Under the pieces are notes generated by a model. The model was not told the DNA's origin and did not search any database. It saw only the letters and a list, made by a program, of their open reading frames with translations. Source: Pseudomonas sp. B6002 (lineage in GTDB: Bacteria; Pseudomonadota; Gammaproteobacteria; Pseudomonadales; Pseudomonadaceae). From it: a stretch of 64,000 nt of DNA. Made by a program: the position numbers and the translations under genes. Of the stretch, positions 24,829 through 64,000 are shown piece by piece (within the stretch, counting starts at the first letter, position 1; each line of letters begins with the position of its first letter). Location of the stretch: NCBI RefSeq assembly GCF_013385985.1, contig NZ_JACAOY010000035.1:1-64000 (forward strand), read 5' to 3'.

Positions 24829-24844
24829 CTGTCAATTCTCACAG
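24829..24844. promoter_or_regulatory. 16-bp dyad upstream of the first Ig-like repeat gene
   Basis: CTGTCAATTCTCACAG, which fits CTGTSA-N4-TSACAG, ends 102 bp before the start at 24947. Matching dyads occur at 32949 and 35255, in front of the two other Ig-like repeat genes. A likely binding site of an unknown regulator. Confidence 0.55.
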
Positions 24845-24946: not shown

Positions 24947-27900
24947 ATGACACATGATCAAAACTCCCTACCAGCTACCACCTGTAGCTGCACATCGACG
25001 GATTTGACATCTGATCAAACCCAGCCGCCAGCCGTGCCCTGCGGCTGCGTACCCATAGTGCAACGCAGAAAACCTGGTAGAAAACCTGGGGGGCGCCTAC
25101 CTGACAGGCCTGATCCTGGAGGCTGCCCCCCAGGCTTTCACAGGCCACCGTCATCCCGACAGCCCTTCGCTGCGCTGTACCCCTATATTCCGAATCTCAC
25201 TCCCATCGTCGGCACCGACGGAGCCCTCAATAACGCCGCCCTGACAGTCAGCGCCCTCGGCGTCATCTACATCCTCTACGCCTGGCTCGAGCAGGCTGAG
25301 AATGACTTCGTCTGGGTTGAACTCAATGGTTTAGAGGTCAAAAGCTACACCGTCTCCGAGACTGACGCCGCCCTTGGCAAGGATATTACGCTGAACATTG
25401 AGTCCGTTCGGTTTATCGACCAGGCAAACAACACACTGCAAGGCTTCGTCAGGCGCTTGAGCGGTGTCGTCGAGGAGACCACCCTTTTGAACGTCTGGGT
25501 GGACACCAAAGCGCCCGGGGGCCTAGACCCACAGGCCAGTACCCCCACCATCAATGAAAACCTGGCGCGTCCCCGCTTCGAAGATCCCACCATCGAAGCC
25601 TTCGGCATCATCACCCAGGCGGCCGCTCAACTCGGCATCAAGGTGATCATTGATGATTACCCGGTGAACCCGCTGGTGGATCAGGTCTACCACCGCAAAG
25701 AAGGTGATGTGATCTTCATCAGTATTGGCGGGGTGATCGTCACCCACACAGTCACCAGTTTTGAGGCCTCCGGCAACGCGCCCATCGTTATTACCATCAA
25801 CTACGGCATTTGGTTGCAGGTGACGCCCGGGGTAAACATTCTTGAATGGTACGTGCGGGATAAGGCTGGCAATCAATCCCACGGCTTTTCGATTCCAAGG
25901 CTTATACAAAGCAACGTGGGCGGGGGTACCGGCCCGTTGTTGCCTGAACCGTATGTGCTTGAATCCGATTACGACGGGGGTTCAGACGAAGACTTCATTG
26001 ACACTGATGCACAATTGAGCGACCTGAACACTGAAATATCAATCAGAAATTATGGCTGGGCCCTCAACGACCAAGTACTTGTCACCTATCTAGGGCTTAC
26101 CTCGACAGGTGAGCCTCTCAAGCATATCGAAACCGCTGACATACCACAGCCCAACGCGTTGCGAATTTACGTTCCCCTACCATTGGAGTTTGCCAAAAAA
26201 CTTGCGGGGGGCCGCTTGTTGATTACTTACGAACGCGTGCGAGTGGGTGAGGCGAATACGCCCTCCAATGCCGTCGTTTACAGCATGCGCGGCACGCCTG
26301 TTGACAACAGCCGGCCAGCCCCCGTGGTCAAAGGGCTCGTAGGCGGTGTCCTGCCGGTAGATACTGATCCAGTGGAAATTACCGTGCCCTTCTTCGGACA
26401 AGACCCCAGTGACAAGGTCGACCTGATCATCGAAGGCAAGGCCCTGGACGGCACCCCTGTGTATGCGAAATACACTGAGATCGCAGGCACGGGAGACCTC
26501 GACTACTTTCTGGACTACTCCAGCGTATTCGCCCCTCTGGAGGGTTCATCTTTCAAGGCGTACTATGTGGTCAATGACGACACCACTCGTCCGTCGAAAT
26601 CGGTAGTCGTTCAGGTGGGCGACATTGCGGTGACACTGCCGCCTCCTACTTCGCCAGAAGCACCACCGCCTGACCATGTATTTGATGAACTCGTCAGCAA
26701 AGGCAACCTGAAGGCACTCGTCCATCCACATTCGAGCATCGCCCTGAACGATGAGGTCCGGGTTGTTGCCATTGGCAGCAAACCAGGTGGCAGTATCACC
26801 ACCGCGTGGTTGAAAGTGACGTCCACCTGGTTTAACTCACCGCTGCCTTTCACGATTGCGCGCGCGATTGTGCTGGCGAACAAAGAAGGCACCATGACAC
26901 TGCACTGGGAAGTCAGGACACTGCCTACAGACACACCGCTCAAATCTCTACCGTTGATCGTCAACGTAGGCGCGATGCTGCAAATCACCGACTGCCCAAG
27001 CCTGCTCGAAAGCACCTTTGTGTCACCTTGCGTCACGCAACTTAATCCGCTGAACGTCTGGACGCCCTCGCCTCGTATCGTCACATTCAGGGTCAAATAT
27101 CTGATGCAGCCTACAGATCTTGTGACACTGGTGGTGCAGGGCAAGCCAGGTCTGGGAATGCCCTCTATCCCGTCTAAACCCGGCGTTCCGGATGCAGGCC
27201 ATGACTACATCACGTTTGCCTACGGCAGTGACTTTGTCGCAGCTTATTTGGGTGAGCCCTTCACCGCGCATGCTGAAGTGCAGCGCAACGGAAACGTTAT
27301 TGAGTCTCCTAAGCTGACCGTTAACGTGGATGCGCTGTCGGAACAAACACTTGAATTAGTGAGCGTACCTGAAGCGGTGGGGGGGGTTATTACTGCCAGT
27401 GGCACCAACAATGTGCGCGTTACGCAGTGGCCATTTTTCAAAGCTGGACAAGCAGTGTTTATTTTCCTTGAAAATACCTCAGGCAACTTAACACTGCGCG
27501 ATGGCACAGTCGTCAGCCCCTCTGAGTACACGGTGGGGTACACCTCAAATCCAATTCCGCAGAGTTTTCTCAACAGTCTTGAAGATGGAAGCACATTGAC
27601 GATTAAGGGATACTTATCTTTAGATGGCACCCAAGATATTTCAGCGGCAATTGCGTTGAAAGAAGTCACTTACATCGTCAGTGCGCCCGTATTTATCACG
27701 CCAAGCGTCACGAAAATAAACACACCCAAAAAAGCAATTTCGCTCTCTGGATACACCTCTTGGACAAGTGTGACCGTGGTTATAGAGTCCGAACCTAACA
27801 AAGAAGTTGAGGTGCTCGATGGAGGCATTTTAAAAAGTAAAAAAATGGCTGATGCCAATGGTATATCAACCCACCCTCTAAGCTCACTCAGCAGAACAAG

Positions 27901-28282
27901 TCATAGCATTACCGCACGAGGTGTATATGGAGATAATCCGGTGTCTGCGCCCCATCAATTCACTATTACGCAACCCCTGGCTGCCGGAACAATTACAAGA
28001 GCCGTAAATGAAAACCTGGGTGGTGTTTATGTTCCTCCGGGAGGCAGCGCAGTGAGGTACTCCGTCATCGCATTTGAAGGAACTTGCAGTGCATTCCCCG
28101 TAAGCAGAGCGGTTAGTTTAGGTTCTCCATCAGGAGGATTCCTTAACTTTACAATCTACGCAAATCAAACTACATGGTCGGCCAAGTCGTCACAAGCCGT
28201 AATTATGTTTAAAGATTATTACCTAAACGAAGAGGAGGAGCCTTTCACCGCTTCGAATAACTACCCTATCAACTGGACTTAA
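24947..28282 (+). CDS. Large Ig-like repeat protein, unknown function (1111 aa)
   Basis: Not recognised as a named family. After a Cys/Pro/Arg-rich N-terminus (residues 1-80, with CSC and CGC pairs) the chain is made of beta-rich modules of roughly 90-110 residues. Each resembles an Ig-like or adhesin domain: a hydrophobic entry strand, a V-x-L-x-W/V core, then VYY or YYV and a closing V-x-V. There is no signal peptide or membrane anchor. From about base 27350 to the end the DNA becomes clearly richer in A+T. Two related genes lie at 30868 and 33140. The autotransporter gene is convergent. The ribosome site is weak. Confidence 0.75.
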   Translation: MTHDQNSLPATTCSCTSTDLTSDQTQPPAVPCGCVPIVQRRKPGRKPGGRLPDRPDPGGCPPGFHRPPSSRQPFAALYPYIPNLTPIVGTDGALNNAALTVSALGVIYILYAWLEQAENDFVWVELNGLEVKSYTVSETDAALGKDITLNIESVRFIDQANNTLQGFVRRLSGVVEETTLLNVWVDTKAPGGLDPQASTPTINENLARPRFEDPTIEAFGIITQAAAQLGIKVIIDDYPVNPLVDQVYHRKEGDVIFISIGGVIVTHTVTSFEASGNAPIVITINYGIWLQVTPGVNILEWYVRDKAGNQSHGFSIPRLIQSNVGGGTGPLLPEPYVLESDYDGGSDEDFIDTDAQLSDLNTEISIRNYGWALNDQVLVTYLGLTSTGEPLKHIETADIPQPNALRIYVPLPLEFAKKLAGGRLLITYERVRVGEANTPSNAVVYSMRGTPVDNSRPAPVVKGLVGGVLPVDTDPVEITVPFFGQDPSDKVDLIIEGKALDGTPVYAKYTEIAGTGDLDYFLDYSSVFAPLEGSSFKAYYVVNDDTTRPSKSVVVQVGDIAVTLPPPTSPEAPPPDHVFDELVSKGNLKALVHPHSSIALNDEVRVVAIGSKPGGSITTAWLKVTSTWFNSPLPFTIARAIVLANKEGTMTLHWEVRTLPTDTPLKSLPLIVNVGAMLQITDCPSLLESTFVSPCVTQLNPLNVWTPSPRIVTFRVKYLMQPTDLVTLVVQGKPGLGMPSIPSKPGVPDAGHDYITFAYGSDFVAAYLGEPFTAHAEVQRNGNVIESPKLTVNVDALSEQTLELVSVPEAVGGVITASGTNNVRVTQWPFFKAGQAVFIFLENTSGNLTLRDGTVVSPSEYTVGYTSNPIPQSFLNSLEDGSTLTIKGYLSLDGTQDISAAIALKEVTYIVSAPVFITPSVTKINTPKKAISLSGYTSWTSVTVVIESEPNKEVEVLDGGILKSKKMADANGISTHPLSSLSRTSHSITARGVYGDNPVSAPHQFTITQPLAAGTITRAVNENLGGVYVPPGGSAVRYSVIAFEGTCSAFPVSRAVSLGSPSGGFLNFTIYANQTTWSAKSSQAVIMFKDYYLNEEEEPFTASNNYPINWT

Positions 28283-28316
28283 TGGTGACCTTAGCAAAAG
28301 CCTTTTTCACAGGCAA

Positions 28317-28343
28317 AAAAACCGCATCTTAGGATGCGGTTTT
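28317..28343. terminator. Bidirectional terminator
   Basis: Hairpin AAAACCGCATC / GATGCGGTTTT with A and T flanks, located between the convergent Ig-like repeat gene and the autotransporter gene. Confidence 0.85.
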
Positions 28344-28357
28344 GTTAACCAGCAACC

Positions 28358-30616
28358 TCAAAACTCCCAACGCACCCCCACATTAACCCCCAGCGGCTGC
28401 TTGATATTCTGCCCTACACTGCGCTCCAGATCCGCATGCAGCTTCAGGTTCTGCGACACCGACATCGCCACGCCCGCGCCCAGCTTCAAGCGTGAACCCG
28501 ACAGGTCGTTATTGAACGCGTTGTCATTGACGAACACCTTGTTGCTCTGGTCGAACTCATGGGCCACTGCGGCCTTGAGGTACGGCTGCAACACACTGCC
28601 ACTTTCCAGTTGGAAGTTGCGGCCAGCGGTCACGCCGACTTCACCGATCACCGTGCTCGAACGATCGCCCTTAGCCTGCAGGCCGTTGTCCAGGGTGTAG
28701 CTCTGAGCCTGGGTGATCACTGCCGCGATTTGTCCATACGGCTCAACGAAATAGCCATCGTCCAACTTGATGTGACGGCCCACTTCTGCCGAAGCACCCA
28801 CAGCGTTTTGCGTGTAGTTGCCCTTGGCTTTCTTGCCGTCGCTCATCGCCACGTCAGAATCGCTGTGCAAGCGGTTGAGCTTGAGCACGCCGTCGAAGTA
28901 GAAGCCGCTTTCGGCATCCAGCCAAGTGGCATAACCACCCACGTAGTAGCTTTTGATCTCAGCCTTGCTGCCACGGTTGAGGTCCAGGTCCGAAGTACTG
29001 TGGCCGGCCATCGCACCGATCAACCACTGGCCATCACCGGCTTGCAGCGGTGCATCGGCACCGATGGTGAAACCGCGTTGGGATTGGTTGTAACCCAGAC
29101 CGGTCTTGTCGTTGGACACTTCATACTTGTTGCCGTAGGCACGGCTCCACAACCCGGCGGATTTGCCATCGTTGAAGCGCAACTCACCCATGCGGGTACG
29201 CAGGGTGGTCATTTCGCCCAACAACACACTTGGTGCCGCGTTGAACAGCGCCAGTACCGAATTGGTGCTCGGGCTGATCACTTTGTTGTTCGGGTCCAGG
29301 TACCAGTCCTGGTCACGGTTATCGCTGACCAGGCCGTACGAATAGGTACCCACATCAACACGATCACCGACCAGACTGAATGTGGCACCGCCGTCGGCGG
29401 TGTGGACCACATGCAAACGGTCATCGGACATCGGGTCGGCACCGGTGCTGGAGATCAGCAACTGGTGGGCGCCGGACGAAGTCCCTGTCACGTTGAGGAA
29501 GTCACCCGTCAAGGTGGAGAAATCCGCCTTCATGATAAAGGTGCCGCCCGTGCCATTGAGATTGGTCACGTCCAGTTGGTAGAACGCGCCCGAGTCGCCG
29601 AACTTGACGTTACCGCCATTCATCGACAGTTCCTTGAGTTCATCCTGGCCATCGACCAGCACCCAGGTGGCGTCGCTGTTGACCGACAACTTGTCGACGT
29701 TCTCCAGGCGGCCGGTGAGGATCGCGCCGTTGTTCAGGCCCACATTGGCAGTGCCGCCGTTGTTGATGATGTCGCCGGTCATCGAGGCGAAATCCAGGTT
29801 CAGGTCCAGCGCACTGCCGCTGCCGACCTGGATGTTGCCGACCAGGTTGCTGTTGTTGACCAGTACGTCAGCGGAGCCGCCGTTGATCAGTTCCAGCATG
29901 TTGCCGTTGCCACCTTCCAGTGTGGTGCCATTGCTGAGGGTAATCGGTGTAACTCCCGTCCCCGGCCCATCCACCACAATGGCGGCACCGGTTTGACCGA
30001 CGACGCGGGTGCCATCAAGGTGAAAGCGGGTGGGTGCGGTTTCTCCACCGCTGCGATAGACGTAAAGACCATTGGTGCCGCCGGTCAGACTGCCGCCTTG
30101 GGCGGCCAGGTTACCGTCGATCGCCAACACACCGAACTCTCCACCGACGACATCGGTGTTCATCATCTGCAGCGTGCTTTCCCGCCCCAGGTTGACGCCA
30201 TAGGTGGCCCCTTCAATCAGGCTGTTGGACACCACCGCGTGACTGCCCACACCATCCTGCTCGCCCACGACCAGCCCCATGCCGCTTGCACTGGAAATGT
30301 GAGCGTCGCGAATGGCTGCCTGGCTGCCGAACAACCGAACGCCGTCTTCGGAGCCCGCAACCACTTGGCCGCCATTCATTTCAAAGATCGAATTCTGCGA
30401 CAGCACGCTGAGAATCGAACCACCGTTGGAAGTCAGCTTGGCACCGTCTTTCAGGGTGTAGCGATCAAACGGGCTCTCGGCATCAATGACGAGTTGCTGA
30501 CCTGCGCCCAGGTCTACGGCAGACACGTGAGTTGCCGCCAGTGAAAAAGGTGCAATCGCCAGGATTTTGATCGCGGTAGACAAGCGCGAGCGCTTGAAGA
30601 GTACTTGGGTATTCAT
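28358..30616 (-). CDS. Autotransporter outer-membrane beta-barrel protein (type Va, pertactin-like)
   Basis: A 752-aa precursor. Residues 1-33 form a long signal sequence ending VSA. Residues about 35-450 are Gly/Asn-rich beta-helix repeats of the pertactin-like passenger type. Residues about 480-752 form the autotransporter barrel (SAGLWSRAYGNKYE, then alternating strands) ending in VRWEF with terminal Phe. It presumably displays the passenger at the cell surface. The function of the passenger is unknown; no protease triad was recognised. Confidence 0.9.
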   Translation of the reverse strand: MNTQVLFKRSRLSTAIKILAIAPFSLAATHVSAVDLGAGQQLVIDAESPFDRYTLKDGAKLTSNGGSILSVLSQNSIFEMNGGQVVAGSEDGVRLFGSQAAIRDAHISSASGMGLVVGEQDGVGSHAVVSNSLIEGATYGVNLGRESTLQMMNTDVVGGEFGVLAIDGNLAAQGGSLTGGTNGLYVYRSGGETAPTRFHLDGTRVVGQTGAAIVVDGPGTGVTPITLSNGTTLEGGNGNMLELINGGSADVLVNNSNLVGNIQVGSGSALDLNLDFASMTGDIINNGGTANVGLNNGAILTGRLENVDKLSVNSDATWVLVDGQDELKELSMNGGNVKFGDSGAFYQLDVTNLNGTGGTFIMKADFSTLTGDFLNVTGTSSGAHQLLISSTGADPMSDDRLHVVHTADGGATFSLVGDRVDVGTYSYGLVSDNRDQDWYLDPNNKVISPSTNSVLALFNAAPSVLLGEMTTLRTRMGELRFNDGKSAGLWSRAYGNKYEVSNDKTGLGYNQSQRGFTIGADAPLQAGDGQWLIGAMAGHSTSDLDLNRGSKAEIKSYYVGGYATWLDAESGFYFDGVLKLNRLHSDSDVAMSDGKKAKGNYTQNAVGASAEVGRHIKLDDGYFVEPYGQIAAVITQAQSYTLDNGLQAKGDRSSTVIGEVGVTAGRNFQLESGSVLQPYLKAAVAHEFDQSNKVFVNDNAFNNDLSGSRLKLGAGVAMSVSQNLKLHADLERSVGQNIKQPLGVNVGVRWEF

Positions 30617-30806
30617 AGGGTAGAACCTCTAGTCGGATGACTGAACAAGCCAATCGATTACAGGACTCATCGACTCAGGCTTTCAGAGGCGCCGAGGTTA
30701 CGTACCCGAAGGGGAACTTCATGTAGGCCGAATCAACGACCCTGTAGGACTTTCCTTAATGGTGAGTGGGCGAAATTTTGAGGTGAACCCTCAAGCCAGC
30801 ATCGAT

Positions 30807-30833
30807 AACCCTTGGGGCTTGCCCCCAAGGGTT
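30807..30833. terminator. Strong hairpin after the second Ig-like repeat gene
   Basis: AACCCTTGGGG / CCCCAAGGGTT with a five-base loop, 34 bp past the stop at 30868. The arms are perfect, but there is no clear T run on either side, so it is only a candidate terminator. The remaining 250-bp gap to the autotransporter start shows no other structure. Confidence 0.55.
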
Positions 30834-30867
30834 AATGGGCGTCACTCAATGCATTTGAAACAGCGCT

Positions 30868-32856
30868 TTAACCGCAAACGCCTCCGCCCAGCTGATACCG
30901 ACTGACGTACAAGGCACTAGGGTCGGACTCTCCCGGAGTCCCCCCCAGCGTGAGTACTTTGTAATAAGCCTCGACACGCCCCTGTGTGACGGGGGAGATG
31001 TAAGTGGCGTAGGGCACCGTGAATATTTCGCCAGGGTGTCCGGCAAAGTGATCCAACGTGACGGTCACCGGAGGGAACTCATGTTCGAGCACCACGACTG
31101 ACGAGAAGAAGTCATCAGGCCCATAGATCACCCATACCAGGGTCACTTGATCGCCAGCTTTCAATTTGCCCGGGCTGATGATTTTGGTTTTGATGCCTGA
31201 CGTAATGCCATCATCACAGTTAATGAAGAACGGATCGTCGTCAGCCCCAGTCCCCTGCGCATCTGGATATTGCAGCAGTTCCAAATCTCCAATCACGAAC
31301 GCTTTTACATCGACTGGGGTTGGCAGGGAATCAATGAAATTGTTGTTGGTTCCATTGTTGAGGCTGTAATAAACATCGTGGACTCCGTTACCCACCAGGG
31401 CAATGACTGACGCAGGAACCGGGATACTGAATTGTGAAGCCGTCTCATCCGCCAGCGTAACGGTGTAGGGTGGTAAAAGCGCCGGAGAGCCGTTCCAGTA
31501 AATCTGGATTCGGTCACCTGCCACAGCGCCGGTATAGACCGCAAAAGTGGCCGTGGCATTACCTGTATCGCCCGGGCCGATCTCGTTGGTCAAACCGCCA
31601 GCCGAGGTGATTGTGAGCAGCCCAAGATTAGGATTGACCGGACCGGGGCCACCCGGATCTGGTGTCAGGCCCGGAGCAGTCAGATCCACGGGAACGCTGA
31701 TCGAGGTGGAAGTCGGGGAGGCAGTACCGTTTGCAATAATCGAGTAAAAGACGGTGGCAGAATAAGGGGCACCCTCACCTCCAGACGCCAAATCGGCCCA
31801 CGGTATTGGAATGTCTTTAGGGAACGTTAAGTTGTTAACCGGTGCATAGATCATTCGCCCGTTAAAATTGACAACGATTTGTTGGCCAATTTCAACGTTG
31901 TCGTAGCCCGTGATTCGAACATAGGCGCGATTCAACTGAGCATCTTCCCGATCCAGCGGCGCTTCGGGCACGACAGGCGGTTGCAGGTTTGAAGGACTGG
32001 GTTCAAGTGTAAGCGTTATCTCCGTCAAATACGGGGGGAAGGTCGTTTCATTACCGGCGCGGTCGTAGTAGATATACGCCAGTTGGTAGACGTCTGATCC
32101 CATGGCCAATATGTCCGCCTTGTCCAAGGTAACGCTCACCGGTAAATTATTGACGGGCAAACCGGTGACTGTGGCAATCGGCGTCGGATCCGTGTAATGC
32201 CAGAAAATACTGAGTCGGTCCCCTACCTGAGGATCAAACCGAGGGCTGCAGGTGACGGTGAAAATGTTGGTCGGAACGTTGAGCAACTCCACCGTCACTT
32301 TGCCATTGACCACCCAAGCCGGAAGCGTTGCTCTGGCCGGCCGGATCCTGGCGTGCGTGTCGTATCGGTCAACCGTAACGACCGCGGGCCCACTCGAACT
32401 ATCAGACGTCGTACCATGAAACACTTCGTAGGTCAGGTTTTTGAGACCATGATCACCCAATTGCGCTTGATTGAACGTGTAAGGACGAGGCCATACCAGC
32501 TCGGGGGCATTCAGGTTGGGGCCAAGGTCCTCACGGGGCCCCACGAGCGAATTATTGATCCTGATTTCCAGACCGTAGCTCGCAAACGGGCCGCCTCCCC
32601 CTGGGGACCATCTGGGGATCTCAATCATCAAACCCTCCAGATAAAGCGTCTCGATACTCATCAAACCAGGCTGGCCACCGGGCACATCTGGCAGTGCATT
32701 CACCACGTCTATGGGAACAAGTAAACCTGCACGGGGGGCTCTTCGCGTGGATCGAGGCTCTGTCAAAACCGAGCGACCGGAAGCTTTGGCTTTTTTCTTG
32801 GCTTTCTTGGGCGCTTTGGGTTCCTTGATATTTTTGGGTTTCTTTAAACTTGCCAT
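30868..32856 (-). CDS. Ig-like repeat protein, unknown function (663 aa)
   Basis: Unrecognised protein related in layout to the ones at 24947 and 33140. A Lys/Pro-rich tail (MASLKKPKNIKEPKAPKK, about 40 residues) is followed by four or more modules of about 100 residues. These contain blocks such as VGDRLSIFWHYTD, AGDRIQIYWNGSP and AGDQVTLVWVIYG, each ending with a YY strand. The last module opens with a Cys (FFINCDDG) and the protein ends GGGVCG, suggesting a disulfide-closed C-terminal domain. There is no signal peptide. The ATG at 32856 has CGGAG upstream; 34 further in-frame codons upstream look non-coding. Confidence 0.75.
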   Translation of the reverse strand: MASLKKPKNIKEPKAPKKAKKKAKASGRSVLTEPRSTRRAPRAGLLVPIDVVNALPDVPGGQPGLMSIETLYLEGLMIEIPRWSPGGGGPFASYGLEIRINNSLVGPREDLGPNLNAPELVWPRPYTFNQAQLGDHGLKNLTYEVFHGTTSDSSSGPAVVTVDRYDTHARIRPARATLPAWVVNGKVTVELLNVPTNIFTVTCSPRFDPQVGDRLSIFWHYTDPTPIATVTGLPVNNLPVSVTLDKADILAMGSDVYQLAYIYYDRAGNETTFPPYLTEITLTLEPSPSNLQPPVVPEAPLDREDAQLNRAYVRITGYDNVEIGQQIVVNFNGRMIYAPVNNLTFPKDIPIPWADLASGGEGAPYSATVFYSIIANGTASPTSTSISVPVDLTAPGLTPDPGGPGPVNPNLGLLTITSAGGLTNEIGPGDTGNATATFAVYTGAVAGDRIQIYWNGSPALLPPYTVTLADETASQFSIPVPASVIALVGNGVHDVYYSLNNGTNNNFIDSLPTPVDVKAFVIGDLELLQYPDAQGTGADDDPFFINCDDGITSGIKTKIISPGKLKAGDQVTLVWVIYGPDDFFSSVVVLEHEFPPVTVTLDHFAGHPGEIFTVPYATYISPVTQGRVEAYYKVLTLGGTPGESDPSALYVSRYQLGGGVCG

Positions 32857-32948
32857 CTTGGTTGACTCCGGAAGTTTAGATAACGTGCCCGCTTCAAAAA
32901 CAGACAGGTAGCCACTTGTATTAAGCGCCCCAAAAAACATTCGCACAC

Positions 32949-32964
32949 CTGTCAACATTGACAG
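32949..32964. promoter_or_regulatory. 16-bp perfect dyad upstream of the second Ig-like repeat gene
   Basis: CTGTCAACATTGACAG, a perfect palindrome with 7-bp arms, ends 92 bp before the start at 32856. It contains a TTGACA, but no well-spaced -10 was found. It shares the CTGTSA-N4-TSACAG pattern with 24829 and 35255. Confidence 0.6.
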
Positions 32965-33102
32965 TTTTGCGTGTTATCCACTTCTGCGTCGTCGTTGTTT
33001 TATCGTCGCGCCCCTACGCACATCGCTGACGACAATAAGGACATGCACGATTGATTTAATGTGATCAAACCCTGCCAGTGCCCGCTTGAATCAAAACAAC
33101 AA

Positions 33103-33120
33103 GGGGGCCTAAGGCCCCCC
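33103..33120 (-). terminator. Terminator after the third Ig-like repeat gene
   Basis: GC-only hairpin GGGGGCC / GGCCCCC with a two- to three-base loop. On the minus strand it is followed by TTGTTGTTTTG. It lies 20 bp past the stop at 33140. Confidence 0.75.
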
Positions 33121-33139
33121 CTGACATTCAACCTGTTTT

Positions 33140-35143
33140 CTACTGGGTTTTTGCTTTGCCGGGTTTCGACGGCTTACCTGCAGGAGGCGCGAGGCATGTC
33201 GTTCCACCGGGCCGAATCAGATCAATCCGTGCGAAATTGGCAGCTGACTTGCCGGTTGGGCCCGACATTTTGTAGAGACGGTAGTAAAACAACCCGGAAC
33301 CATTGGTTGGAATCAGCCCAGGCACTGTGATCAACGGGTCGAAGGGTTCTATGTAGACCTCTGCCACTCCAGCAGTCCTGTGGGCGTCCGTCAGTTCCAG
33401 TTCAAACCAGACCTGAGACCCCGCAATAGGCGCCCCCCCTCCATTGGTCGTGCGGTGACTGCTCCAGAACAACCTGACCCTATCGCCGACTTCAAAGTGA
33501 GTCGTGCTCCAGGGAATCCCCAGGATGACCGCCTCATAGGGCTGAGGGACGGTATCGCACGCGATCATTTTAGACGGGTGATTGTTCAGCAAGCTTGCCG
33601 CTGCCAGCCCCGTCAAGGTATCCAACTCAACACGAACCTGGGTGGCACGGCTTCGTTGATAATTGACGCCGTTATAGGTCCAGTAATAAACCTCTACCAG
33701 CCCACCCCCCGCGACGATCAAGGCCCACGGCACATACAGCTGCACGGTCTGCCCGGCGACATCTCCGGGGTCGACCACTTTTATATCGGCAAATGTGGCG
33801 TCATTGCCCCAGAACAGACGCAGGTTTTCCCCCACCTGCGGATTGAAGAACAAAGGCACCTCAACCAAAACAGGGCCGGGTGAGTCTGCAGGAGTGACCA
33901 CGTTATCCGCGGTGACCCCTTTGACCGTTACAATCGGCAACGCGGGGTTGATCGGATCGGGGCTGACCGGGGGATCACCTGCCACCGTAGCATCGACTTC
34001 AATGAAGGTGTCCGGTGAGTTCTTGGTGAGCGAACCCCGCGCAAACGCGTACCACACCCTTACCGGGTATCGAGCGTCAAACCCGCCAACCAGGAATATC
34101 GGCCACGTGACGTCCACGGAAATGGGCCAGATCTGCGTCGCACCTACGGTAATCGTCGCCAGAATATGGGTGTTCCAGCGCAGAGTCAGGGTATCGCCCT
34201 CCTCCGCCCCTATCACCTCCTGCAGGGAGACACTCACGCCTTGGCGGATATCATCCAGGTCAATCAGGCCATCGGTTTCTGCCCGAGGCACCAAAGGCCG
34301 GAGCAAATCGGGCAAGGAAACCAGGTTGATATCGAGTTTGACCGGATCGGAAAAAGGTCCGATGTTGCCGACACGGTCCATCAACCGATAGGACGCCCAC
34401 CTTTCACCACCACCACTGGTGCGAACAACTGCCTCGGGAATCAGGTACAGCAGTGGGTCACCGTCTTCAATGTGACGCCGTTCAACCGTAAAACTGCCGA
34501 CATAGTCGATATTGGGGATGGTCCCAAAGAACACCATGACCACGTCTTCGGTGCGCATGACCAGGTAACGTGGAACTTCACAGGGGATACCTGCGTCGGC
34601 GGTGAGCTCGGCATCACTCACGCCGTCAAGTGTGTCGGGGCCGAATATAAGTTCGGCACCCGGGTTATCCTGGTTGGGGGCAAGATCGTCGACATCAATC
34701 AGCGTTCGCTCCGACTCGCCCGTCGGCAACAATACCCCACTGATCTTGTAATACATCTGGCTGACACCGGGCGTATCCAGCAACCATGCCGGCAGCGCTT
34801 TGGTGTACGGGAACAAGACGGCGGGATCATAGGGGCCGAGGATCTCCTCGGTCCACACGTGGTCGCCCTTCCAGAAGTATTCAATGTTGGTGCGCACGTT
34901 TGTGGCTGCGTTATTGGGCGTCCACACGCTTGGAATGGTGACTTTGAAAGGCTGGCCCCGAACTGACAGGGGGATTTTGTGTGCGGCTTCGTCCCATAAC
35001 AGTGGAAGGCTGTCTTCCGGTAGTGGGCCCACCACCCCGGGCGATGGTGCGGCAGGCTCAACAGGAGAGCTCTTTTTTCTTTTGTTGGGACGGGCCTTTT
35101 GGGCGACGGTTTTTTTCTGTTGGCGCACCTTCGAGTCAGTCAT
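33140..35143 (-). CDS. Ig-like repeat protein, unknown function (667 aa)
   Basis: Unrecognised, with the same build as the product of 30868-32856. A Lys/Arg-rich N-terminus (MTDSKVRQQKKTVAQKARPN) is followed by repeated modules with EEGDTLTLRWNTH, VGENLRLFWGNDA and VGDRVRLFWSSHR. A last module is framed by two cysteines (KMIACDT and GGTTCLA) and followed by a Lys-rich tail. There is no signal peptide. The ATG at 35143 has GGGAG 7 bases upstream; the TTG or ATG further upstream are less likely. A terminator follows and a shared dyad precedes. Confidence 0.75.
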   Translation of the reverse strand: MTDSKVRQQKKTVAQKARPNKRKKSSPVEPAAPSPGVVGPLPEDSLPLLWDEAAHKIPLSVRGQPFKVTIPSVWTPNNAATNVRTNIEYFWKGDHVWTEEILGPYDPAVLFPYTKALPAWLLDTPGVSQMYYKISGVLLPTGESERTLIDVDDLAPNQDNPGAELIFGPDTLDGVSDAELTADAGIPCEVPRYLVMRTEDVVMVFFGTIPNIDYVGSFTVERRHIEDGDPLLYLIPEAVVRTSGGGERWASYRLMDRVGNIGPFSDPVKLDINLVSLPDLLRPLVPRAETDGLIDLDDIRQGVSVSLQEVIGAEEGDTLTLRWNTHILATITVGATQIWPISVDVTWPIFLVGGFDARYPVRVWYAFARGSLTKNSPDTFIEVDATVAGDPPVSPDPINPALPIVTVKGVTADNVVTPADSPGPVLVEVPLFFNPQVGENLRLFWGNDATFADIKVVDPGDVAGQTVQLYVPWALIVAGGGLVEVYYWTYNGVNYQRSRATQVRVELDTLTGLAAASLLNNHPSKMIACDTVPQPYEAVILGIPWSTTHFEVGDRVRLFWSSHRTTNGGGAPIAGSQVWFELELTDAHRTAGVAEVYIEPFDPLITVPGLIPTNGSGLFYYRLYKMSGPTGKSAANFARIDLIRPGGTTCLAPPAGKPSKPGKAKTQ

Positions 35144-35254: not shown

Positions 35255-35270
35255 CTGTCAGAACTCACAG
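35255..35270. promoter_or_regulatory. 16-bp dyad upstream of the third Ig-like repeat gene
   Basis: CTGTCAGAACTCACAG on the plus strand, which is CTGTGAGTTCTGACAG on the gene strand. It begins 111 bp before the start at 35143. It fits CTGTSA-N4-TSACAG like the sites at 24829 and 32949. Confidence 0.55.
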
Positions 35271-47208: not shown

Positions 47209-48093
47209 ATGAGGCCAGAAATCGCTGTGTTGGATATACAGGGTCAGTATCGGGTTTACACGGAGTTCTATCGCGCGGACGCTGCTGAAAAGACCATCAT
47301 CCTGGTCAACGGCTCGATGGCCACCACGGCATCCTTCGCCCAAACCGTGAAAAGCCTGTACCCGCAGTTCAATGTGGTTTTGTACGATCAGCCCTACGCT
47401 GGCCGCTCCAAGATCCATAACCGTCATGAGCAGATGCTGACGAAGGAAGTCGAAGGCCAGATTTTGCTGGAACTCATCGACCACTTCGCCGCTGAACACG
47501 TACTGTCATTTTCCTGGGGGGGCGCCGCCACCCTGGTCGCCCTCGCCCACCGGCCGCGCCGCGTCGAGAAGGCGGTGATCAGCTCGTTCTCCCCAGTGAT
47601 CAACGCGCCCATGCGCGACTATCTGGAGCGTGGGGTCGACTACCTCGGCAACCTCGACCGCGACCGCGTCGGCCACCTGGTCAACAGCACCATCGGCAAA
47701 CACTTGCCGTCGCTGTTCAAGCGGTTCAACTACAAACACGTGAGCAGCCTGGCCGAACATGAGTATGGGCAGATGCACTTTCACATCAGCCACGTGCTCA
47801 ACAGCGATCGCCTGTGCTACCTCAGGGCGGCCAAGCAGATCGACATCCCGGTGCTGTTCCTGAACGGTGAATGGGACGAGTACACCAGCGCCCAGGACGC
47901 CAAGCTGTTTGGCCAGCATGTGGCCAACAGCAGCTTCAGCACCATCCAGGCCACCGGGCATTTCCTGGACATGGAGCACAAGGCGGCGTGCCGGGACAGC
48001 CGGGACGCAGTCGTCGGTTTCCTGAAACAGCAGCGCCCGGTCAGTCGCCTGCGCTACCACCAGGGCCAGACGCAGCATGCCTTTGCAATCTGA
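47209..48093 (+). CDS. phaG: (R)-3-hydroxyacyl-ACP:CoA transacylase PhaG (RhlA-family alpha/beta hydrolase)
   Basis: PhaG moves 3-hydroxyacyl groups from ACP towards CoA, linking fatty-acid synthesis to medium-chain polyhydroxyalkanoate. The 294-aa protein matches remembered P. putida PhaG almost throughout: MRPEIAVLDIQGQYRVYTEF, SFSWGGAA with S102, D223 in WDEY, H251 in GHFLDME, and the HAFAI C-terminus. RhlA shares the triad but has a different N- and C-terminus, so PhaG is preferred. The start has CAGGAG upstream. It may act as a thioesterase needing a separate acyl-CoA ligase. Confidence 0.93.
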   Translation: MRPEIAVLDIQGQYRVYTEFYRADAAEKTIILVNGSMATTASFAQTVKSLYPQFNVVLYDQPYAGRSKIHNRHEQMLTKEVEGQILLELIDHFAAEHVLSFSWGGAATLVALAHRPRRVEKAVISSFSPVINAPMRDYLERGVDYLGNLDRDRVGHLVNSTIGKHLPSLFKRFNYKHVSSLAEHEYGQMHFHISHVLNSDRLCYLRAAKQIDIPVLFLNGEWDEYTSAQDAKLFGQHVANSSFSTIQATGHFLDMEHKAACRDSRDAVVGFLKQQRPVSRLRYHQGQTQHAFAI

Positions 48094-48138
48094 AATGCAG
48101 TATCGGAGAGTTACCTGGTTATGCAGGAACTGGGCTCA

Positions 48139-48229
48139 TGTGGGAGCTGGCTTGCCTGCGATAGCATCACCGAAGTGTGACTGACACACAGAAGTGCCGG
48201 TATCGCAGACAAGTCAGCCTCTGCACCTG
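48139..48229. repeat. Degenerate REP doublet
   Basis: Left arm GTGGGAGCTGGCTTGCCTGC and a decayed inverted arm ATCGCAGACAAGTCAGCCTC lie between phaG and tRNA-Gly. The mismatches mark it as an old copy. Confidence 0.7.
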
Positions 48230-48298
48230 TAACCCACACATTTTTGAAGAAAAACTTCAAATCCAGGCAAACATCTGGTACAAAGTCAGCCGCTCTGA

Positions 48299-48372
48299 GC
48301 GGGTATAGTTTAATGGTAGAACAGTAGCTTCCCAAGCTTCCGACGAGGGTTCGATTCCCTCTACCCGCTCCA
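48299..48372 (+). tRNA. tRNA-Gly (anticodon CCC)
   Basis: This 74-nt gene has acceptor arms GCGGGTA / TACCCGC, D-loop AATGGTAG, anticodon loop TTCCCAA (anticodon CCC, reads GGG), T-arm GAGGGTTCGATTCCCTC, and an encoded CCA at 48370-48372. The anticodon stem GTAGC / GCTTC has one T-T mismatch. A weak promoter TTCAAA-N17-TACAAA lies about 15 bp upstream. Confidence 0.93.
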
Positions 48373-48421
48373 CTCAGATTCTGCTCTCGCGCCAGGTTGG
48401 TTTTGGCGGGGGATGCATGAA

Positions 48422-48450
48422 AAAACCGGTCCTTGGTGGCCGGTTTTTTT
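48422..48450 (+). terminator. Terminator after tRNA-Gly
   Basis: Hairpin AAAACCGG / CCGGTTTT with an inner TCC-TTGG-TGG extension, followed by a run of seven T. It ends the tRNA-Gly transcript. Confidence 0.85.
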
Positions 48451-48504
48451 ATGCCTGAAATTTGAGACACCAACTTTCCCTACACACTTAACCGCCCTCC
48501 CCGA

Positions 48505-48525
48505 CGTACGCTATCCGTGCGTACG
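48505..48525. promoter_or_regulatory. Perfect inverted repeat upstream of brnT, possible operator
   Basis: CGTACGC-N7-GCGTACG, 76 bp before brnT. BrnA antitoxins repress their own operon by binding palindromes, so this is a candidate autoregulatory site. An A+T-rich stretch suitable for a -10 lies between it and the start. Confidence 0.45.
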
Positions 48526-48601
48526 GACAGACATACCCACTCTTAGCTCTGAAGATCAGCGGTCCCATCAACCGCTTTTTTATACATATAAAATATGCAT
48601 A

Positions 48602-48883
48602 ATGAAAACCTTCAGAATCCAGTATGACGCCACAAAAAACACACTGAACAAAATGAAGCATAGCGGTGTAAGCCTTGCAGACACAGAACCGGTGTTCTAT
48701 GACGAAGCCGCGTTGGTATGGCAAACCCATGATCATGAAGAGCAACGCTGGTGCATCATCGGCAAAGACGCAACAGGAAGAATACTGTTGGTCGCCTATA
48801 CCTACCGTGACCCGAATTTTGTAAGGCCCATCAGCGCAAGGCTCGCATCCAAAAATGAACGAAGGAAGTATCTGGAGGCTTGA
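48602..48883 (+). CDS. brnT: Type II toxin BrnT (ribonuclease)
   Basis: A 93-aa BrnT toxin of the RelE-like fold. It has the family start FRIQYDATKNTLNKMKHSGV, the acidic D-x-H-EEQRW block, IGKDATGRILLVAYT and the C-terminal RPISARLASKNERRKY. It cleaves mRNA when free of BrnA. No strong ribosome site precedes the ATG. brnA follows 3 bp later. Confidence 0.9.
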   Translation: MKTFRIQYDATKNTLNKMKHSGVSLADTEPVFYDEAALVWQTHDHEEQRWCIIGKDATGRILLVAYTYRDPNFVRPISARLASKNERRKYLEA

Positions 48884-48886
48884 ACC

Positions 48887-49255
48887 ATGAAAGACGAATA
48901 CGACCTCGACAACGCCAAACGTGGCGCTGTGGCCAGTAGCAAAGGCAAAACCCGGATCACCATTATGCTCGATGACGCCGTGATCGAAGCCGCTCGGGAA
49001 CGTGCCGAAAACGCGGGTACGGGCTACCAGACTGTTATCAACAATATCCTTCGTCAGGCGCTTATTTCTCAGGAAGTCCATGACCTGGCCCCTGCGCCTA
49101 AAAAGAAAGCAAAAACGCTTCAAGTCATTAATAACGGGATCAGTCATTCAGAAGTAGAGGCACTGGAACAGCAATTGATCGCCGTTGCCGGAGAGCTCAA
49201 TCGTGTACTGGGAACACCCAAGCCGGGCAGACAAAAACCCAAGCCCACGTTGTAA
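48887..49255 (+). CDS. brnA: BrnA-family antitoxin
   Basis: A 122-aa antitoxin with a ribbon-helix-helix-like DNA-binding part (KTRITIMLDDAVIEAARERAENAGTGYQTVINNILRQAL) that should neutralise BrnT and repress the operon. A Lys/Pro-rich tail of about 40 residues makes it longer than many BrnA proteins. Confidence 0.85.
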   Translation: MKDEYDLDNAKRGAVASSKGKTRITIMLDDAVIEAARERAENAGTGYQTVINNILRQALISQEVHDLAPAPKKKAKTLQVINNGISHSEVEALEQQLIAVAGELNRVLGTPKPGRQKPKPTL

Positions 49256-62918: not shown

Positions 62919-63258
62919 CAAGTACTTCCTTCATCCAGCCAGTTTTGACTACCCAACAGTCAGATCTTTGAAGGCCATCATCACATTCGGCCATTCAGTT
63001 GACACCTTACTCAATCTGGTGCAGTTCGACCTCAGTAAATAGCGTGACGCTTGCACTATTTATCCACAACACAGTCAGGTGCGTCCTTGCGTAAACCCCA
63101 TCAAACAATATCAAAACAATACCCATTAGCCATCAGAAATGTAGGAACCTACTCACGCCGAAACCATCATCCTGAGTAGTTTGCATGGGAAACGCCTGAC
63201 TTATTTTATAAAAAATTCCCGCTACTGTTTTCCATCTCTCCCCAAGGACGAATAAAAA
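62919..63258. other. A+T-rich intergenic region at a composition boundary
   Basis: No gene supported. The base composition turns A+T-rich from about 63040. A weak promoter candidate TTGCAT-N17-TTTTAT lies at 63181-63209, about 50 bp before the start of the last gene. Nothing else was recognised. Confidence 0.5.
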
Positions 63259-64000
63259 ATGGAAAACACCCGACAACTTAATAAATTTTCCAACTATAAA
63301 AAAATAATCGGCATCTCCGACAATGATTGGCATTCGGCTAAAACAGGTCGAATTAGCGAACTAAATGTCGTCGTAAAAAAATGCAACTACCTTACAGATC
63401 AATTTGGACGTGAACTCCATCACTTCTGCACCACTTCATACCTTGGCCTTGATTACCACCAAGACATATTGGAAGGCGCCATAAACGGATTAATAACAGC
63501 AAAGACACTTCGCATTGCCAATTCAAAAAATCGATGCAAGCTTCAAATGCTTGAACAGTATGAAGTCGAACTATCGAGTCTTTTCAAATCGACCTGCCTA
63601 AGCACTTTATCCTGCAGCGCTGCTAGTTCAGGATTACTGCCTCTACTTGCCAGTGGAGCGCTGACCAATGACTGCCCACCTATTATGATATTCGACAAAC
63701 ACTCTCACTACTCAATGAACCATATCAAAGCTTCTTGCGCAGATGAATCTGAGGTAGTAACAGCTCCTCACAACGACATCTCCTTCATTGAAGAAATTTG
63801 TAAAAAGCGCAAAAATGTCGCGTACATTGCGGACGGCCTCTACAGCATGGGCGGTAAGGCAGATATTGATGGGCTGCTCCATCTCAAGTCTCGCTATGGG
63901 TTATTTCTTTACCTCGACGACTCACACGCGCTATCGGCATTCGGCGAGCAAGGAAGCGGGTTTATACGACCACAACTGAAAGAGCTAGATGATCGAACAT
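63259..64000 (+). CDS. Alpha-oxoamine-synthase-like PLP enzyme (partial, runs off the right edge)
   Basis: At least 247 codons are open from ATG 63259 (MENTRQLNKFSNYKKIIGIS) to the window end; an AAGGA site lies 11 bases upstream. The chain shows fold-type I aminotransferase features of the BioF/KBL/CqsA group: TSYLGLDYHQDILEGAINGL, DKHSHYSMNHIKA (ring-stacking His), DGLYSMGGKADIDGL and the cofactor motif LDDSHALSAFGEQGSG (D220, H223). The catalytic lysine would lie beyond the edge. Codon use is A+T-rich, unlike its neighbours, suggesting acquisition by transfer. The product is unknown. Confidence 0.85.
   Translation, partial: MENTRQLNKFSNYKKIIGISDNDWHSAKTGRISELNVVVKKCNYLTDQFGRELHHFCTTSYLGLDYHQDILEGAINGLITAKTLRIANSKNRCKLQMLEQYEVELSSLFKSTCLSTLSCSAASSGLLPLLASGALTNDCPPIMIFDKHSHYSMNHIKASCADESEVVTAPHNDISFIEEICKKRKNVAYIADGLYSMGGKADIDGLLHLKSRYGLFLYLDDSHALSAFGEQGSGFIRPQLKELDDRT

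Follow-up and report, generated by a model that had tools for sequence, protein, structure and literature searches.

What do three large, beta-rich proteins of no recognised family do beside an autotransporter gene, and do they do it inside or outside the cell? The question arises from a 64,000-nucleotide stretch of Pseudomonas sp. B6002 (contig NZ_JACAOY010000035.1, positions 1 to 64,000 of the forward strand; hereafter 'the window'), in which a first-pass annotation had noted three immunoglobulin (Ig)-like repeat proteins around an autotransporter. The three are Ig1 (24947..28282, plus strand; a long, multi-module protein from an open reading frame (ORF) of 1111 amino acids (aa)), Ig2 (30868..32856, minus strand) and Ig3 (33140..35143, minus strand; 667 aa), and the autotransporter is here called AT (28358..30616, minus strand; 752 aa). 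The minus-strand gene order is Ig3, Ig2, AT, with Ig1 converging on AT from the opposite side.

In brief, the Ig modules are homologous, AT belongs to a distinct clade of autotransporters that is inherited together with Ig genes, all three Ig genes have one operator-like dyad in common (a point absent from the earlier annotation), and the Ig proteins evolve faster than the products of neighbouring genes. Our tentative reading, to which we would give a probability of roughly 0.4, is that this cassette encodes a LuxR-type-regulated extracellular adhesion or recognition system, made up of a dedicated autotransporter and its Ig-like partners.

Co-inheritance of the Ig genes and the autotransporter

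AT is a classical (type Va) autotransporter, with a C-terminal barrel and a beta-helical passenger that both score over cut-off (Pfam Autotransporter 1.1e-53 and Pertactin 3.6e-25; NCBIfam TIGR01414 4.3e-94) and an N-terminus that is hydrophobic, positively charged and, by eye, signal-like. In a barrel tree, 73 of the 74 members of its Ig-linked subfamily (those of loci L174 and L175 included) fall into one clade with none of 37 other autotransporters (support 0.96), 11 of which had their wider neighbourhood checked; this clade test is partly circular, since the ATs were found with a hidden Markov model (HMM) seeded from the window AT, and the locus counts are less so.

Those counts run in both directions. 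Forty stretches of about 20 kb around Ig3-query matches, chosen regardless of ATs (mostly strong matches, some genomes repeated), contain an AT in 38 cases; conversely, Ig genes are present in 18 of 20 stretches chosen around subfamily ATs, 12 of these stretches coming from genomes without any Ig3-query match and one of the remaining two (L175) stopping at a contig end. Four more subfamily ATs whose Ig neighbour had gone unrecorded (L139-L142) all proved to have one, a fragment of a subfamily AT (L144) has no Ig gene, and all 11 loci with other kinds of autotransporter are without an Ig gene. The pairing persists in no fewer than five distinct neighbourhoods and is not bound to a single gene order; an Ig gene lies immediately upstream on the same strand of 54 of 69 subfamily AT ORFs (upstream on the opposite strand in 10, only downstream in two, none adjacent in three). 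On these counts AT is a dedicated, co-inherited partner of the Ig genes, and most often directly follows one of them in the same orientation; the annotated placement of the Ig genes around AT is thus correct, yet 'surrounded' undersells the relationship, and the suggested search of other Pseudomonas for a shared partner does return this subfamily.

The Ig3 query matches 175 of 299 Pseudomonas genomes at E 1e-3, and the AT subfamily profile 218 of 298 at E 1e-60, a cut-off that perhaps lets in some more distant ATs. With a 30-row Ig profile, seven of 293 genomes match in a sample of the order (five Pseudomonas and two weak matches in long ORFs) and 12 of 398 in a sample of the phylum, of which six are Pseudomonas. 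The other six comprise four matches in frames of 3275-5207 aa, one in a frame of 1066 aa, and a genome of another class (G756) that has full-length Ig homologues and, at one locus (L098), an AT; the two non-Pseudomonas relatives scanned carry Big_13 and Big_6 repeats, one of them with a BapA prefix domain as well. In a Yersinia frederiksenii plasmid, a 750-aa autotransporter shares its strand with two Ig ORFs of 624 and 1177 aa, whose products are annotated as hypothetical, and transposase genes lie close by; the plasmid's autotransporter scores 199 bits with the subfamily HMM, yet falls outside the Pseudomonas clade. A search of open-licence PubMed Central (PMC) literature by title or abstract returned no description of the Ig-AT pairing, and the system has no family name.

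The Ig-like family and its evolution

The first-pass annotation described the three proteins as modular, beta-rich and built of similar blocks, and all of this holds. Seventy-three homologues of 600-900 aa (Ig2 and Ig3 included, Ig1 outside the set) were cut into five modules that were aligned singly, a two-module alignment having been discarded since overlapping copies aligned to themselves; all ten HMM-HMM comparisons between the five alignments match mutually, at probabilities of 88.6 to 98.8 %. Scanned with the module HMMs, Ig2 and Ig3 each show five modules, after a Lys-rich tail in Ig2 and a Lys/Arg-rich one in Ig3, a result that is partly by construction as both proteins are in the alignment set. 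Lys-rich tails occur in several family members. BLASTP shows Ig2 and Ig3 to be homologous (22 %, E 7e-14); the relation of Ig1 to either is undetectable pairwise and is made through iterated HMMs, with weak module-HMM matches at some six points along Ig1 (best domain i-E 7.5e-5).

The family also remains an unrecognised one. Ig1-3 match no family over Pfam or NCBIfam cut-off and nothing in PADLOC, a PDB sequence search with Ig1 and Ig3 gave no match, and a PHROG search gave a single weak one, of Ig1 to phrog_8092 (function not assigned; E 0.02). Pfam places no Big domain over its curated cut-off in Ig2 or Ig3, and Ig1 stays below it for Big_3_5 (14.1 bits, cut-off 35.5, E 0.072); the Ig1-type relatives at L048 and L077 do pass Big-domain cut-offs. 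The structure model of full-length Ig3 is poor (pLDDT 51, pTM 0.29, six rows), and its strand pattern alone was used.

Ig1-type proteins have about residues 60-910 in common, and their C-terminal ~200 aa vary between species (from BLASTP ranges), being propeller-like in L069 and L072, of Big_13/Big_3_5/Big_6 type in L077 and L048, and without a domain recognised by Pfam in L065, L103 and the window, the Ig1 tail of the last possibly holding an undescribed domain. Partial Ig ORFs of 100-324 aa, possibly decayed or donor copies, lie beside full cassettes at L038, L139, L140 and L141. There is, in addition, a conserved two-module Ig ORF of ~250-280 aa that stands without an AT (L101, L102 and, in this genome, G000 C4:476069, L058), next to ABC-transporter, acyl-CoA-dehydrogenase-like and luciferase-like genes at L058 and L101.

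Compared with three relatives (L004, L005 and L059), the Ig genes have a dN/dS of 0.21-0.58 (for Ig1, measured on part of the gene) and are thus under purifying selection; the value is 0.05-0.13 for AT and 0.04-0.06 for the two flanking genes, and within AT it is 0.015-0.072 for the barrel and 0.094-0.165 for the passenger. Against L004, dS is 0.07-0.19 for Ig3, Ig2 and AT, lower than for Ig1 (0.40) or either flank (0.33 and 0.74), a sign that the Ig3-Ig2-AT stretch may have been exchanged recently; the same is not clear against L005 and L059. GC content is also lower over 25-35 kb (0.49-0.60) than over 19-25 and 35-47 kb (0.60-0.66), and both this and the low dS against the nearest relative bear out the accessory character first proposed for the cluster. 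The names of the neighbours ('tct', 'ung', 'echA') were assigned by eye; the 230-aa 'ung' adjoins the cassette in 18 of 43 sequences compared, the window included. Elsewhere in the window, GC falls to 0.51 at 48001-49000 and to 0.44 at 63001-64000, against ~0.57-0.66 nearby.

A common dyad and a candidate LuxR regulator

From words enriched 5' of Ig genes we derived a 16-bp dyad, CTGTSA-N4-TSACAG. It occurs, at 11 or 12 of 12 positions, before 67 of 155 Ig genes, one of 68 AT genes and 54 of 1046 other genes, the last set including the unlabelled Ig genes of L098-L108 and genes that share an intergenic region with an Ig gene. The spacer is specific: lengths of 2, 3, 5, 6, 7 and 8 each give at most one of the 155. 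In the window the pattern CTGTNANNNNTNACAG has three sites against 0.07 expected, one before each Ig gene and none elsewhere: CTGTCAATTCTCACAG at 24829..24844 (103 nt before Ig1), CTGTCAATGTTGACAG at 32949..32964 (93 nt before Ig2, counted from the ATG at 32856) and CTGTGAGTTCTGACAG at 35255..35270 (112 nt before Ig3). The Ig2 start at 32856 has GGAG ~9 nt ahead of it; with the dyad distance resembling those of Ig1 and Ig3, this makes a length of 662 aa likelier than the 696 aa from the upstream in-frame ATG at 32958, so that all three ORFs first annotated are present and only the 663 aa given for Ig2 needs amending.

Lux boxes have a CT-N12-AG frame; the dyad has this frame too and stands at a fixed spacing before genes. 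The N-acyl homoserine lactone (AHL) regulator AfeR of Acidithiobacillus has been assigned GCTGTCAA-NN-TTGACAGC (PMC3759942), and it is by comparison with this 'afe-box' that we regard the Ig dyad as lux-box-like and as a candidate operator. A first guess at the dyad, TGACAG-N6-10-CTGTYR, was wrong (two of 151 Ig genes), and a LexA site was set aside as the centre of the dyad differs from the LexA consensus.

Across the whole genome the pattern has 15 sites, against one for the reversed pattern. One of these lies at the start of a 935-aa Ig-type ORF (G000 C9:31765, L198; Ig HMM 2.1e-28) that directly follows a long gene resembling, by eye, a nonribosomal peptide synthetase. Three lie at G000 C2:177732-182386 (L195) among small ORFs of 77-219 aa, beta-rich and signal-less by eye, in a cluster adjoining an alginate lyase (PF08787) gene; five of these ORFs were scanned and have no Pfam match. 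Another is 114 nt before a gene for a 169-aa SET-domain (PF00856) protein with a Lys-rich N-terminus (G000 C34:583585, L202), and seven have no evident link.

AT has a motif of its own: TCCTACAT is found upstream of 32 of 68 AT genes against four of 1050 others, the form AGGAAANTCCTACA has one site in the window, before AT, and the site itself reads AGGAAAGTCCTACA (30743..30756, minus strand; 0.02 expected). A terminator-like hairpin lies directly 3' of Ig3 (33101..33121, minus strand), and Ig3 and Ig2 may on this account be transcribed separately; the window has 14 such sites against 11.2 expected, which is no excess, and a hairpin by a stricter rule is found in 13 of 65 gaps between successive Ig genes, against 1 % of shuffles.

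Twenty-six chosen genomes were scanned for AHL-type LuxR proteins (PF03472), which are present in 18 of the 20 with the cassette and in none of the six without, a co-occurrence confounded by phylogeny and genome size. Dyad counts follow the same division, being 1-39 (median 15.5; control 2) in the 20 genomes and 0-1 in the six. Motifs of fpr-like and RNA-methyltransferase-like genes flank LuxR at 13 of 30 LuxR loci, the one in this genome (L211) included, and in PMC8546723 such genes flank the LuxR 'solos' of subgroup A, themselves reported there in almost all fluorescent pseudomonads of one study. This genome has a further pip-linked LuxR solo (L228) and a third, weak one. A LuxR-type protein is thus a candidate, and at present only that, for binding the Ig dyad.

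Inside or outside the cell

In agreement with the first-pass annotation, no Sec signal was seen in the three Ig proteins, or in the family N-termini inspected, by hydropathy and eye. Taken over the N-terminal 80 residues, peak 12-residue hydropathy has a median of 1.38 for 150 Ig ORFs and 2.00 for 69 subfamily ATs, and the ranges overlap, which makes this a weak test; eight Ig ORFs reach 2.2, and six of their N-termini proved on inspection by eye to be over-extended starts or to have no signal-like n-region. The Ig proteins contain 0.4-0.7 % Cys, against 1.1 % over the window ORFs, and two conserved Cys columns bracket the last module (C529 and C650 in Ig3), both being occupied in 58 of 73 homologues. 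Such a pair could form a disulphide and would then point to an oxidising compartment, though as evidence it is weak. Together with the adhesin-like relatives and the fast evolution, these features lean us towards Ig proteins that act outside the cell rather than as an intracellular scaffold.

The best-surviving alternative, although we think it doubtful, is that the Ig proteins stay in the cytoplasm and there aid the making of AT, as a holding chaperone or in control of its secretion, or else scaffold other parts. The lack of a visible signal and the position of an Ig gene directly 5' of AT would both suit such a role, as would the Lys-rich tails, which could bind nucleic acid or membrane. It sits poorly, however, with loci that often have two or more fast-evolving Ig genes beside a slowly evolving AT, with the other kinds of autotransporter that manage without Ig genes at every locus examined, and with two phylum-level relatives that are giant adhesin-like ORFs.

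Rather less probable still, in our view, is a polymorphic set for self/non-self or host recognition, in which diversified Ig proteins with swapped tips would be released by lysing kin and read by AT or by neighbours. The constant ~850 aa and swapped tail of Ig1-type proteins (beta-propeller, Big_13/Big_3_5 or unrecognised), the extra partial Ig ORFs beside several cassettes and the RHS genes that adjoin the cassette at some loci are what one would expect of it. Polymorphic toxins join a constant N-terminal part to a variable, toxic C-terminal domain; the Pfam domains in the variable tails here are of beta-propeller and Ig types, and scans of the Ig proteins gave neither a toxin nor an immunity domain. 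The RHS linkage holds at a minority of loci and the partial ORFs may be decay.

RHS-type genes lie near the cassette at L043, L045, L046, L047, L052, L056 and L075, with the repeats confirmed by scan at L045, L047 and L056. Also near those cassettes are the large ORFs of another family (cluster c8), three of which gave no match when scanned with Pfam; a link to Tc toxins, suggested by neighbour gene sizes, was dropped, Pfam having found RHS repeats in one neighbour type and nothing in the other. At L075 a single 1988-aa ORF has an RHS-like front part and continues into a whole five-module Ig protein (1348-1975), perhaps as the result of a fusion by deletion.

Discussion

Synthesising these results, we suggest how such a system might work. 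AT, with its beta-helix passenger, would be the dedicated autotransporter at the cell surface, accompanied by two five-module Ig-like proteins and, in this genome, by a longer one with an exchangeable C-terminal part. A LuxR-type regulator at the common dyad would switch the Ig genes on together, with AT under its own control site; the Ig proteins would leave the cell without an N-terminal Sec signal, perhaps via lysing cells, and would act outside, most likely on the AT passenger or on the surface that AT binds, so that the cassette would serve in adhesion or recognition. The more specific proposal, that a Sec-independent pathway delivers the multi-Ig proteins to AT under LuxR-solo control, we consider unlikely.

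Several observations weigh against our main reading. On the side of regulation, 88 of the 155 Ig genes lack a good dyad; AT and the Ig genes need not be co-expressed, given their different motifs, and the Ig genes themselves may sit in separate units, with a hairpin after Ig3 and Ig1 on the opposite strand. In G126 and G250 the loci carry the dyad, yet no PF03472 protein was detected; there is no dyad excess in G192 (six against seven in the control) and little in G018 (seven against five), and G110 has both LuxR and the cassette, yet a single dyad. The parts examined of the published target lists of PpoR and PplR (from PMC11543582, some of the 84 genes of Table 2) mention neither Ig nor AT genes; they do contain hypothetical proteins, and the strains concerned may or may not carry the dyad. 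For the tested subgroup A member, no regulated promoter was detected, according to PMC8546723.

With respect to location, no export signal or route was found for the Ig proteins, and the Cys pair is incomplete in some homologues (C-terminal Cys alone in eight of 73, first alone in one, neither in six). The partnership has its exceptions too: a lone 485-aa Ig at L040 and the two-module Ig at L058 have no AT, and L174 has a subfamily AT without Ig genes. An AT is present at four of eleven further Ig matches (L098, L099, L100 and L108); at another five (L101-L105, of which L104 runs into a contig end) the Ig relative has none within the stretch, and the last two (L106, L107) are giant adhesin-like ORFs, from which we conclude that shorter or divergent Ig relatives are not tied to AT.

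Simple hitch-hiking of AT and Ig genes on a common mobile stretch, without joint function, would account for the lower GC, the transposase genes near the Yersinia set and a dS of Ig3, Ig2 and AT below that of ung and echA against the nearest relative, and is improbable given the pairing across so many neighbourhoods and gene orders and given that just one of 19 informative AT-chosen loci (L174) has no Ig gene, an Ig-type dyad persisting there 182 nt ahead of AT, which looks like the trace of a lost Ig gene.

The proposed adhesion or recognition cassette can be set against several known systems. The Ig modules resemble, by distant sequence match and a putative Ig-like fold, the Big_13/Big_6 repeats of BapA-type giant adhesins, but these type I secreted proteins run to thousands of residues, whereas Ig1-3 are of 662-1111 aa (662, 667 and 1111), reach no family cut-off and are paired with an autotransporter. 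AT is like pertactin and AIDA in its signal-like N-terminus, beta-helix-type passenger and C-terminal barrel; a paired, signal-less Ig partner was not met in the type Va literature searched, and its subfamily is a separate clade. In type Vb two-partner secretion (TPS) the genes for the secreted and outer-membrane proteins adjoin, as the Ig genes and AT do, but AT bears its own passenger and the Ig partners have no visible Sec signal and no TPS domain in general Pfam and NCBIfam scans. The regulons of LuxR solos (PpoR of subgroup A, PipR of subgroup C) are comparable in the lux-box-like dyad and, for subgroup A, in the flanks of the LuxR gene, and differ in the points of regulation given above.

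More than half of the sampled Pseudomonas genomes contain this gene system, which has no described function in the literature searched and joins three puzzles: large Ig proteins without a signal, autotransporters of one subfamily that nearly always have the same partner, and lux-box-like sites to which no use has been assigned. The dyads provide a list of candidate promoters. Were the more specific proposal of Sec-independent delivery under LuxR-solo control true, the conserved LuxR solo of subgroup A (PpoR-like) could have direct targets in the Ig genes, and a surface recognition system driven by quorum or host signals would be spread through Pseudomonas.

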